Source of the DNA: Hydrogenothermaceae bacterium
GTDB lineage: Bacteria; Aquificota; Aquificia; Aquificales; Hydrogenothermaceae
Direction: 5' to 3'
DNA length: 33,001 nucleotides
Assembly: GCA_027030405.1 (NCBI GenBank)
Contig: JALVEZ010000101.1
Location: forward strand, 1 to 33,001
The position numbers and the translations under genes were made by a program. The notes beneath the pieces were generated by a model, which did not search any database, had not been told where the DNA came from, and saw only the letters and a program-made list of their open reading frames with translations. The stretch's first letter is position 1. Each line of letters starts with the position of its first letter. Positions 8,507-13,121 of the stretch are shown here, piece after piece.

Positions 8507-9301
8507 ATGCAACGAAAAAGAAATAAAGGACAATACGTTGTTCACAACGTAGAAACAGCCTTCAAAATACTATTCTTTTTAGCCGAAAATCCAAACTCAC
8601 CATTAGAACATATAAAACAAAATATCAAAGGTACATCCCAACAAATAGATAAAATTTTAGAAGTATTAGTTGAAAGAGGCTATATCTATTTCAACAAAAA
8701 AAAGAAAACATTTTCTTTAGGAATTAAAAATTTCGAAATAGGACATTCATATCTTTCACATATAGAAATAAGAAAAATTTCTCGACCTTATTTACATAAG
8801 TTAGGTGATTTTATAAATGAAAATGTTTATCTGGCAACTATGAGTAACTGGGAAGTTGTTTATATAGATGCATATGAGATAGATAGAACCGTTGTTGTAA
8901 AATCCCGTGTTGGTAAACTTTTACCTGCATATGCATCTGCTTCAGGTAAAATACACCTTGCATACTTAAGTGATGATGAATTGGAAGAATTTTTTAAAGA
9001 AGTAGAATTTAGGAAGTTTACACCCAAAACTATAACAGACAAAGATGAACTCTTACAGCATCTAAAAAAAGTAAAAGAACAAGGTTATGCAATAGATGAT
9101 GAAGAGTGGGAAAAGGAAGTAAGATGTTTATCAGTTCCTATCAGGAACTATTCTGGAAAGGTAATTGCGGCAATAACTCTATCTGCCCCTGCATACAGAC
9201 TACCTTTTGAAAAAATAAATGAAATTAAAGATGAATTTTTACAGGCATCATCAGAAATTTCAGAAAAATTAGGTTACTATCAGGAAGCAAATGCAAGATA
9301 A
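8507..9301 (+). CDS. IclR-family transcriptional regulator
   Basis: This 264-residue protein has an N-terminal winged helix (about residues 8-72: VETAFKILFFLAENPNSPLEHI, LEVLVERGYI) and a C-terminal IclR effector-binding domain (YLATMSNWEVVYIDA, KLLPAYASASGKIHLAYL, DDEEWEKEVRCLSVPIRN). IclR proteins bind small metabolites and act as local repressors or activators. Its end overlaps the dapE start by 11 nt, so the two are co-transcribed, which is an unusual partner for an IclR protein. The effector cannot be deduced. It starts 24 nt after tRNA-Asp, and some of its transcript may be read-through from the tRNA promoter. AGGAAG precedes the ATG. Confidence 0.9.
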   Translation: MQRKRNKGQYVVHNVETAFKILFFLAENPNSPLEHIKQNIKGTSQQIDKILEVLVERGYIYFNKKKKTFSLGIKNFEIGHSYLSHIEIRKISRPYLHKLGDFINENVYLATMSNWEVVYIDAYEIDRTVVVKSRVGKLLPAYASASGKIHLAYLSDDELEEFFKEVEFRKFTPKTITDKDELLQHLKKVKEQGYAIDDEEWEKEVRCLSVPIRNYSGKVIAAITLSAPAYRLPFEKINEIKDEFLQASSEISEKLGYYQEANAR

Positions 9302-10352
9302 GTTAATAAAATATACTAAAAAACTAGTAGAAATACCATCTGTAATAGGAAATGAAAAAGAAATAGCAGACTATACTGAAAATTTTGTGAAACAGTTTTA
9401 TCCTGAGAAAAATATTCTCAGATATAACAACTCAATCATAGTTCATGATGATTTTAATCCTAATAAAAAAACCATAGCTTTAATAGGCCATCTTGATACT
9501 GTCCCTGGAGAGAATGATTATACAGGTCAGATAATAGATAATAAGATTTACGGTCTCGGTTCAAGTGATATGAAAGGTGGTCTTGCAGTTATGATGGGAC
9601 TTATAGAACACTTTAAAGATAAAGAAAAAAGATTGAACACCATTTATGTTTTTTATGAAAAAGAAGAAGGCCCTTATGTGGATAATGGATTAGAACCTCT
9701 TTTATCAGATTATGACATTATTCAAAAAGCTAATCTGGCATTTGCATTGGAACCTACCAATAATGTAGTTCAGGTAGGTTGCGTAGGAACAATGCATGCA
9801 TCTATTATTTTCAAAGGAAAAAGAGCACATTCTGCACGTCCATGGGAAGGTGATAATGCTATCCATAAATCTGCACAATTTTTGCAAAAATTAGCCGAGT
9901 TTGGACATAATGAAATAGAATTTGAAGGTTTAAAATACTATGAAGTTATGAATGCTACAATGGTAAATTATTCTGGAGGCAGAAATATTATTCCAGAAGA
10001 ATTTGTAGTCAATGTGAATTATAGATTTGCTCCTGGAAAAACGATAGAGCAGGCCAAAGAAGATATAATTAAGCTTGTTGGAGATGAAGCTGAAGTAGAA
10101 TTTACAGATCTTTGTCCTTCAGGTTCCGTATGTTTATACAATCCTGTTTTGTCAGAATTCCTTGAAAAATTTAAATTACCTGTGGAAGCTAAACAAGCGT
10201 GGACTGATGTAGCACGTCTCAGTTTGTATGGTATCGATGCAGTTAATTTCGGCCCTGGAGATCCTGCACAGGCACATCAAAGAAATGAATATATTCCAAT
10301 TCCTAATTTAGTGGAAAATTTCAATTATTTTAAAAATTTTATTGAAAAATAA
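9291..10352 (+). CDS. dapE: Succinyl-diaminopimelate desuccinylase (M20 metallohydrolase)
   Basis: This 353-residue di-zinc M20 enzyme removes succinate from N-succinyl-LL-diaminopimelate in lysine and peptidoglycan synthesis. The zinc ligand/catalytic motifs are visible: H67 and D69 in GHLDTVPG, D93 in SSDMKGGLA, and E125/E126 in EKEEGP. GKRAHSARPWEGDNAI is the dimerisation-domain motif. Length and motif order fit the DapE branch typed in Gram-positive and deep-branching bacteria; ArgE or another M20 amidase is the alternative. The ATG lies inside the iclR-type gene. The 3' end overlaps the convergent PilT-like gene by 14 nt. Confidence 0.85.
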   Translation: MQDKLIKYTKKLVEIPSVIGNEKEIADYTENFVKQFYPEKNILRYNNSIIVHDDFNPNKKTIALIGHLDTVPGENDYTGQIIDNKIYGLGSSDMKGGLAVMMGLIEHFKDKEKRLNTIYVFYEKEEGPYVDNGLEPLLSDYDIIQKANLAFALEPTNNVVQVGCVGTMHASIIFKGKRAHSARPWEGDNAIHKSAQFLQKLAEFGHNEIEFEGLKYYEVMNATMVNYSGGRNIIPEEFVVNVNYRFAPGKTIEQAKEDIIKLVGDEAEVEFTDLCPSGSVCLYNPVLSEFLEKFKLPVEAKQAWTDVARLSLYGIDAVNFGPGDPAQAHQRNEYIPIPNLVENFNYFKNFIEK

Positions 10353-11226
10353 TATCCTGAATATCTTCTTTATCTATTAAAGGTTTTCCGACAAAGTAAT
10401 TTATCTTTTCATCTTCTTCAAGTTCTACTTTTATAACTCCTTTTATATGCTGTATAAAATCTTTATACACGTACGGATCAAGAGAGTCTTTTAATGTTTT
10501 TTTCAATAATGAAGTAGAAGGAATAGGAAAACTTAAAAGATTAAATCTAAAAAATTCTATTTTATTTAAAAATGGTAAAACCGATTCACTGATATTCTTT
10601 CCGATAAAAACAAGATCAGGTTCTAAAATTGAGGCGTCTTCTATACCTTCTTCAAAGGATCTTACATCAACATCTACATCCCTCTGAATAATGATTGAAG
10701 ATTCATGTTTAATCAGATAAGACATTGGGTGTTCCAAAACATATATAAATTTTTCTGATCTTTTGTTTATGATGTTCAGTAAAGAGTAGTTAAACGCTGC
10801 ATTTTTTAACCAGTGTTCACCGATAACAAAATATATACCCTGTGTTTCTTTTCCTAACTTTTCCGCAAATTCTATAAATCCGATTGGATCTCTAAACAGT
10901 TCTTTAGGTTCTGGAATATAATAAGGAACTTTCATTATGTTTAAAACGTAGCTACCCCTTTGCATTATATAGCTGACTCTAATTCTACCAACATATGGCA
11001 TACCAAAAGAAAATATTTCTTTTTCCTGTAATAAAGATTTCATATGAATATTTGATCTGAGGGATATTAATGTATCTTTAACATCTCTTGCTGTTAACTT
11101 TCTATTGAAAAGTTTTCTGAATTGTTTCCCTTCTCTTTGAATGATTTCAGAACCAGGTATAAGTAATAATTCTATAAGTTCATGATTTTTCTCGAAATAG
11201 TTCAGTATCTCAGCGGCAAAATTCAT
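10339..11226 (-). CDS. Degenerate PilT-like protein lacking ATPase motifs
   Basis: The 295 residues align by eye with the twitching-motility ATPase PilT (usually about 350-370 aa). Conserved blocks are EIFSFGMPYVGRIRVSYIMQRGS (residues 70-92), VPYYIPEPKEL (100-110), SIIIQRDVDVDVRSFEEGIEDA (177-198), EPDLVFIGKN (202-211) and a C-terminal helix pair (KDFIQHIKGVIKVEL). The catalytic elements are missing. Walker A reads GEHWLKNA at 136-143 instead of GPTGSGKS. The Asp box reads LEHPMSY. The Walker B glutamate is a lysine (IGKN instead of VGEM). The His box (TLHTN) is absent. It should therefore not hydrolyse ATP. The gene is intact, with a GAGGG ribosome-binding site and ATG start, so it is probably a functional pseudoenzyme, perhaps binding a type IV pilus motor; that role is inference. 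Confidence 0.72.
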   Translation of the reverse strand: MNFAAEILNYFEKNHELIELLLIPGSEIIQREGKQFRKLFNRKLTARDVKDTLISLRSNIHMKSLLQEKEIFSFGMPYVGRIRVSYIMQRGSYVLNIMKVPYYIPEPKELFRDPIGFIEFAEKLGKETQGIYFVIGEHWLKNAAFNYSLLNIINKRSEKFIYVLEHPMSYLIKHESSIIIQRDVDVDVRSFEEGIEDASILEPDLVFIGKNISESVLPFLNKIEFFRFNLLSFPIPSTSLLKKTLKDSLDPYVYKDFIQHIKGVIKVELEEDEKINYFVGKPLIDKEDIQDIIFQ

Positions 11227-11290
11227 AGCTACCCTCTAAAAGTATTTATAATTTATATTTCGTAAGGAAAGGCGAGAATCTTTAAATAAA

Positions 11291-11312
11291 AAAGGGGATT
11301 TTTATCCCCTTT
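11291..11312 (-). terminator. Intrinsic terminator of gapA
   Basis: The stem AAAGGGGAT (11291-11299) pairs with ATCCCCTTT (11304-11312) across a 4-nt loop. On the minus strand it is followed by TTTATTTAAA. It lies just after the gapA stop codon. Confidence 0.8.
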
Positions 11313-12410: not shown

Positions 12411-13121
12411 ATGATAAATATAGAAAAGATTCATTTACTACAGGATGATGTTCTTACATTCTTAGGTGGGATTCAGGATTTTCCGTTTATTTTCAGTGGA
12501 TCTACTCTCTTGGCAAGGGCTTATTTACAGCACAGAAACTCTTACAATTTAGATTTTTTCGCAAAAGAAGAAGGTTTTGATACTGAAGAGATTAAAGAAA
12601 TTATAGATACCATGTCAGATTTTTTTGACATTCAAGACCTTCCTTCAAAAGATTTTAGTTTTCCTAAAAATATAGAAAACAAAGTTTTTCAGGTAAACAG
12701 GAAAAAGGAAGAAGATACAAAAATACAGATTATTTTCTGGGAAAATCTGTTTGTTGGAAAATTTGAAACGGTTCCTATAGAATTTGGGATAGAAATTGAA
12801 GATATGTCAGGAGTTTATAATAGAAAAATAAATGATATTTTCAATGAACCTTTAAATACAGAACATTTCATGGATCTATATGCCTTAGATGAAGAAATTC
12901 CATTAGAGTTGGTATATGAAAAAGAGTTTATACCACTTGTAGGAGAGTTTAACGTGTCATTAACAAAAGGTGATCTAAAAGAAAAACTTCAAAATTATCT
13001 AAATTTTGTTGAAAATGATAAAATAAAAGTGGATAAAGAACTTAAATTCTATGGTGTTACATATAATCCAAACACCCTTGAAAAATGGTTAAAAGAAAAG
13101 ATTCAAATACTGGAGAAATAG
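12411..13121 (+). CDS. AbiEii/AbiGii-like nucleotidyltransferase-fold protein
   Basis: This 236-residue protein looks like the AbiEii/DUF1814-type Pol-beta nucleotidyltransferase fold: [23 protein letters not shown] at residues 28-50 matches the family pattern GGTaL.l.y...R.S.DlDf, with G30, S31 and D48 as the catalytic-like positions. A later segment, [14 protein letters not shown], matches the usual RDlyDly.L. The second acid of a DxD pair is not obvious (N46 instead), so activity is uncertain. No AbiEi antitoxin partner is adjacent. It has AAGGAG before its ATG and is followed 1 nt later by mtnA, suggesting a housekeeping operon and not a toxin-antitoxin locus. Confidence 0.6.

Follow-up and report, generated by a model that had tools for sequence, protein, structure and literature searches.

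A PilT-like protein family without the catalytic motifs of the retraction ATPase in Aquificales and a second bacterial phylum

An intact pseudo-PilT gene

The window, a 33,001-nucleotide stretch of DNA from a Hydrogenothermaceae bacterium, carries on its reverse strand an intact gene for a relative of the pilus retraction ATPase PilT, which we refer to as pseudo-PilT (Table 1). The open reading frame starts with ATG, runs for 295 codons with zero internal stops and is preceded by an AGAGGGT ribosome-binding site. These features agree with an earlier note made on this DNA from its letters alone, and the peptides quoted in that note are present in the frame. The antisense overlap of 14 nt that it described with dapE was recovered against the convergent M20 peptidase (dapE-like) gene, and convergent overlaps of 4-50 nt are found at most of the orthologous pseudo-PilT loci. 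An intrinsic terminator was identified between gapA, which lies upstream, and the pseudo-PilT gene. This suggests that pseudo-PilT is probably transcribed alone, as a transcription unit separate from gapA. Elsewhere in the window, a 236-aa ORF (12411-13121) gave no significant Pfam match (best E 0.09).

Table 1. Features of the pseudo-PilT locus. Positions are those of the window; fractions refer to aligned family members unless stated otherwise.
Feature	Position	Strand	Details
Pseudo-PilT gene	10339..11226	(-)	295 aa, intact; open reading frame, TIGR01420 2.6e-20, PDB PilT 4e-18, orthologues in 49/136 Aquificota genomes
Ribosome-binding site AGAGGGT	11231..11237	(-)	4 nt ahead of the pseudo-PilT ATG; from sequence
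14-nt antisense overlap	10339..10352		Pseudo-PilT 3' end with the convergent M20 peptidase (dapE-like) gene, 9291-10352
Intrinsic terminator between gapA and the pseudo-PilT gene	11291..11312	(-)	1 found, 0.1 expected
N-terminal (N2D-like) domain, residues 1-105	10912..11226	(-)	AF2 model; dN below that of the C part in most relative pairs
Retained N2D motif FSFG..GRIRV.Y..QRGSY, residues 72-93	10948..11013	(-)	R81, Q89, R90 in 54/54
Met98, putatively at the invariant phosphate-binding Arg finger of PilT (PilT R98, PilB R286)	10933..10935	(-)	Arg lost in 54/54
Walker A position, residues 136-144 GEHWLKNAA	10795..10821	(-)	Lys lost in 54/54; in the model the helix begins nearly at the strand end
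Asp-box position, residues 163-170 VLEHPMSY	10717..10740	(-)	E165 kept in 54/54; Mg-binding Glu lost in 54/54; Asp lost
Retained QR(E/D)xxxD motif, residues 181-187	10666..10686	(-)	Q181 54/54, acidic 183 54/54, D187 53/54
Walker B position, residues 204-211 DLVFIGKN	10594..10617	(-)	Lys210 in the window copy; Asp/Glu in 46/54 relatives

Relationship to PilT

The window protein was compared with profile, sequence and structure databases. Against NCBIfam it matched TIGR01420 (pilT_fam) over residues 21-209 at a level well beyond chance, but its 72.9 bits did not reach the curated cut-off of 319.1 bits; the true PilTs of the same genome scored 508 and 447 bits on this profile. PilT1 of this genome lies at L084:4182-5282 and PilT2 at L085:5342-6469. 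A Pfam scan of the window protein gave no match at E 1. In a sequence search of the PDB the only real matches were PilT and PilU chains, the best of which was PilT from A. aeolicus (2gsz / 2ewv), and a family profile constructed from 19 relatives reached PilT in the PDB at 2.6e-32. An AlphaFold2 model built on the relatives (pLDDT 90.4, pTM 0.86) contains the PilT fold with N2D and C1D. Foldseek, one of the comparisons that the earlier note had recommended, returned PilT4, PilT2 and PilU as the best PDB matches of the model (TMq 0.71-0.77), including PilT4 6ojy at E 5e-20 and PilU 9n32 at TMq 0.77. The resemblance of the window protein to the PilT family, first suggested by eye, is certain. 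Its extent had been overstated, however, as the likeness was said to continue to the C-terminal helices; sequence homology is confined to residues ~21-234, and the protein lacks the PilT C-terminal domain, for which 38/38 Aquificota rows have no aligned residues.

Catalytic motifs lost and residues retained

To describe the catalytic positions across the family, column counts were taken from 54 aligned family members and 14 canonical PilTs; one orthologue (L012) was left out of the alignments for a masked run of N in its 3' end (~2226-2427, G055:C72). The GEHWLKNA sequence reported at the Walker A position was confirmed, and the Walker A lysine (consensus GxxGxGK[ST]) is present in 14/14 true PilTs but in 0/54 family members. 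In the model the helix begins almost at the end of the strand, and therefore no P-loop is formed. Gly136 is kept at this position in 50/54 members, and the loop itself varies freely among them. The Asp box (EDPIE in PilT) had been described as erased, which is correct for its Asp (0/38 Aquificota members) and its Mg-binding Glu but not for the first Glu (E165) and Pro167, both of which remain. Similarly, the replacement of the Walker B Glu by Lys is real in the window copy but peculiar to it, as most relatives have Asp or Glu at this position. The His box is indeed missing from the window protein: neither aligned position holds a His in any of the 38 Aquificota members, and His is not among the residues listed there for the 54. 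The first of the two Arg fingers in N2D (R83) is kept in 48/54 members and the second is lost in all of them, their equivalence to PilB R271 and R286 being assigned by alignment spacing. On the basis of this 15-residue spacing, Met98 would be equivalent to PilT R98 and PilB R286. The losses are shared, as no homologue with a Walker A motif was found among the 54 members from two phyla. On the defining features tested, the window protein falls outside the PilT ATPases.

The residues that are retained form two conserved faces. R81, Q89, R90, E165, H174, Q181 and an acidic residue at position 183 are strictly kept, and D187, R83 and S73 (44/54) are kept in most members. R81, Q89 and R90, mostly together with R83 and S73, make up the N2D face, and E165, H174, Q181, acidic 183 and D187 make up the C1D face. 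In structures of PilT and PilB, E164 binds Mg, R81 and R83 touch the Asp box and R286 binds phosphate; the contacts T221-H230 and R195-D161 belong to the ATP-closed interface and the contact E178-S73 to the open interface (PMC6858323, PMC5424180). The equivalents of PilT T133, R195, T221 and H230, which couple adjacent subunits in an ATP-dependent manner, are gone in the family, and the open-state S73-E178 pair is largely kept.

Distribution, phylogeny and selection

Pseudo-PilT orthologues occur in Aquificales only among the 136 Aquificota genomes, with Hydrogenobacter and Thermocrinis assemblies among the carriers. By family, they were found in 4/41 genomes of the family to which the window belongs, in 43/64 and 2/7 genomes of two further families of the order, and in 0/24 genomes of the class's two remaining families. 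Orthologues are distinguished from canonical PilT by a clear score gap across the 136 genomes (E <=9e-51 versus E >=1e-33). Complete genomes without pseudo-PilT (e.g., g16) show that some lineages can dispense with it.

A wide scan of 84,980 species was carried out with a narrower family alignment, as the first alignment (A1) was too diverged for this purpose. The scan also recovered a member labelled Verrucomicrobia bacterium S02.Bin004 (L122), whose flanks have no match to the Aquificota neighbourhood clusters. Within this second phylum (NCBI label Verrucomicrobiota) there are nine carriers among 388 genomes, the S02.Bin004 genome included, and in one class of the phylum pseudo-PilT is present in at least 16 of 174 genomes. 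In length and in their losses, the second-phylum members match those of Aquificota; lengths in the family are 275-295 aa, compared with about 360 in PilT. A candidate for a third phylum, "Acidobacteria bacterium isolate J001" (L100, RFFP01000016.1), was rejected: its flanks are 67-92% identical to Aquificaceae loci, and the record very probably represents a wrongly labelled bin of Aquificaceae. No pseudo-PilT relative was detected in the viral contigs searched, and the phage and plasmid records searched gave ordinary PilT-like matches only. Three "Bacteriophage sp." records without annotation, all from human faeces (MT836798, MT836211 and MT836175; H3-H5), contain a stretch that is 29-34% identical to residues 72-210, which is probably ordinary PilT-like ATPase sequence.

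In the phylogeny, all pseudo-PilTs formed one clade (100/100), separate from the PilT1 and PilT2 sequences of the two phyla. The Aquificota members grouped together (97/93), with the second-phylum members branching next to them. The clade sits on a long stem, whose exact attachment point is not to be read, and the window copy is on a long branch.

Among pairs of relatives with more than 70% identity, dN/dS was 0.009-0.23, a range that is approximate at its low end as many dS values are saturated and that does not include the window copy, which has no close relative. Ratios below 1 had been proposed as a check in the earlier note and were thus observed among the relatives. In nearly all pairs dN is lower in residues 1-105 than in the rest of the protein. 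Judged by these substitution rates, the pseudo-PilT family is maintained under purifying selection and is not decaying. A decaying PilT pseudogene would account for the loss of all catalytic motifs, and the window copy is both on a long branch and short of a residue that most relatives keep. Against this, the 295-codon frame is unbroken, the losses and the length are common to 54 members from two phyla, non-catalytic residues are strictly conserved and selection among the relatives is not relaxed. We rejected a pseudogene as extremely improbable. The match to the PilT profile, the shared losses and the low dN/dS all bear out the original description of a catalytically dead but maintained relative of PilT.

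Genomic neighbourhood and co-occurrence in Aquificota

No pilus genes were found near pseudo-PilT in 20 Aquificota loci, where the neighbours are unrelated housekeeping genes. Conserved neighbours differ by family: Aquificaceae have a diaminopimelate-decarboxylase-like gene, and the family of the window has the M20 peptidase with an IclR regulator. Most Aquificota copies converge and overlap with either the decarboxylase-like gene or the M20 peptidase. The convergent 3' neighbour appears lysine-pathway-like in both lineages, being DapE/ArgE-like in one (M20; window 9291-10352) and diaminopimelate-decarboxylase-like in the other (cluster c1, L034-L045, L047), but these are two different genes and the likeness is probably a coincidence.

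In a single genome (G064), a gspC-gspE pair (L080:3456-5658) is located beside the pseudo-PilT gene in divergent orientation. This arrangement, along with the gspC-like matches seen in most carrier genomes, would be expected if pseudo-PilT served a type II secretion motor (GspE) instead of a pilus. However, no other genome has such a neighbourhood, gspC-like matches are equally common in non-carrier genomes, and both sequence and fold are those of PilT/PilU. The 295-aa window protein has no N1D, no Walker A and zero cysteines, and therefore no tetra-Cys site, and its best matches are to PilT, not to GspE or PilB. We consider a role in type II secretion decidedly unlikely.

The proposed co-occurrence with true PilT does hold in the sense that every carrier genome has canonical PilT-family genes, but PilT-family matches are present in 135/136 Aquificota genomes and the co-occurrence is therefore uninformative. 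The distribution of pseudo-PilT across Aquificota matched that of none of PilB, GspC, CheW or PilZ. Five Hydrogenobacter-type genomes (g15) carry pseudo-PilT with zero CheW or PilZ matches, and so neither CheW nor PilZ is needed for pseudo-PilT in Aquificota.

A signalling partner in the second phylum

In three second-phylum genomes (G314, G305 and G573), pseudo-PilT is followed by a partner gene, the two overlapping by 4 nt at the closest and lying ~20 nt apart at the widest, giving three operons. The partner has the domain order receiver, GGDEF, receiver, receiver, and its GGDEF domain is degenerate in 17/17 homologues, with an intact motif in none. Loci of the partner family were recorded at L145:8709-10712 and L144:4688-6874 and in L148-L153, L156, L157 and L171-L179. 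Full-length partner homologues are present in 6/9 carriers but only 2/379 non-carriers in the phylum sample (Fisher 5e-10), and in 10/16 carriers but only 5/158 non-carriers in the class sample (Fisher 4e-9), both p-values being without correction for shared ancestry. An unlinked partner homologue in G499 adjoins cheA, cheB and a REC-GGDEF gene. The idea that pseudo-PilT is regulatory thus has indirect support from the three operons and from the statistical association with a multi-receiver, degenerate-GGDEF protein. In the Aquificota genomes tested there is no full-length homologue of the partner, only generic GGDEF or REC matches; together with the g15 genomes that have neither CheW nor PilZ, this means that the signalling link does not apply generally.

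The partner also bears on whether the ATP site has been rebuilt into a pocket that senses a different ligand, for example a nucleotide second messenger. The partner belongs to a c-di-GMP-type domain family, and the fact that most members retain Gly136 and an Asp or Glu at the Walker B position indicates that the pocket is not random. Such a pocket is difficult to reconcile with a Walker A loop that varies freely between members, with the Lys at the Walker B position of the window copy, and with the degenerate GGDEF site of the partner itself, and we regard it as quite unlikely.

Proposed function

We interpret pseudo-PilT, with moderate confidence, as a PilT/PilU paralogue in which catalysis was lost once, long ago, and which has been kept as a non-catalytic partner of type IV pilus (T4P) motors. 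It is most likely a regulator of pilus motors, the motor being its presumed partner. Under this interpretation, ATP binding and hydrolysis would have been lost in a single ancient event and the protein would have been kept in Aquificales and the second phylum. From the loss of the contacts that need ATP and the retention of most of the S73-E178 pair, we infer an open-like state, so that pseudo-PilT would be a PilT-like protomer locked open independently of ATP. It would act by binding, most likely to the ring of a canonical motor (PilT1, PilT2 or PilB), where it could break the ATP cycle as one of the subunits or serve as a cap or adaptor, and would thereby set the timing of pilus retraction. 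In the second phylum, the level or state of pseudo-PilT is probably tied to the receiver-domain protein of the same operon, the probable source of the signal. Among possible targets, a ring formed by a canonical motor of the same ATPase family appears the likeliest, because the retained surface is that of a PilT protomer and because a Walker-dead PilT is still useful to PilU: V. cholerae PilT K136A still supports PilU-driven retraction, which indicates a non-catalytic role for PilT (PMC6821130). Slowing, capping and licensing of the motor are outcomes between which sequence cannot discriminate.

PilT and PilU form separate homohexamers (PMC6821130), and therefore hetero-rings are not the default in the PilT family. 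Separate rings are also what would be expected of an independent scaffold, in which pseudo-PilT uses the conserved faces of N2D and C1D to form an oligomer of its own and binds the PilC/GspF platform or the stator without mixing with PilT rings. The retained residues could equally support self-assembly and the gene is monocistronic in Aquificota, but the residues of the ATP-driven ring contacts (equivalents of T133, R195, T221 and H230) and the PilT C-terminal domain have been lost, which makes a scaffold of this kind rather unlikely. Beyond a non-catalytic partner of T4P motors, our preferred interpretation, we tentatively suggest a possible broader picture: a cross-phylum family of pilus-motor pseudo-ATPases that arose by one ancient catalytic loss, whose subunit controls active T4P rings and which in one phylum pairs with a degenerate-GGDEF, multi-receiver pseudoenzyme that feeds chemosensory signals to the motor.

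Comparison with known systems

PilT and PilU (TIGR01420; PDB 2gsz, 6ojx, 9n32) are the only clear sequence relatives of pseudo-PilT, with which they share the N2D and C1D fold, the FSFG..GRxRV..QRG motif, the first Asp-box Glu and the QRE..D motif. Pseudo-PilT differs from them in its missing elements (Walker A, the Mg-binding Asp-box Glu, the second Arg finger, the His box and the C-terminal domain), in its shorter chain (275-295 aa), in its score (73 bits versus a cut-off of 319) and in forming a separate clade. V. cholerae PilT K136A is likewise a non-hydrolysing PilT that supports retraction if PilU is present (PMC6821130), but it was made in the laboratory by a point mutation in a PilT that is otherwise complete, whereas pseudo-PilT is a natural family. 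Receiver/GGDEF regulators of the FimX-PilB type provide a precedent for a degenerate GGDEF regulatory partner (PMC11656802), comparable to the second-phylum partner with its degenerate GGDEF and receivers, but FimX, which acts on PilB, is itself unrelated to PilT, and no FimX-like protein is linked to pseudo-PilT in Aquificota.

Our search of the open-access literature found no description of a natural Walker-less or catalytically dead PilT family. To our knowledge, a naturally occurring, catalytically dead subunit has not been described for any retraction motor. Pseudo-PilT bears on the open questions of what switches PilT-type rings and what triggers retraction, as a naturally occurring protein that may act as a motor brake or adaptor. 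As the family has kept the subunit faces but none of the parts that contact ATP, it shows which PilT surfaces matter without catalysis. The named conserved residues and the second-phylum partner make the idea directly testable. Structural studies may benefit from the Aquificota members, which are thermophilic.
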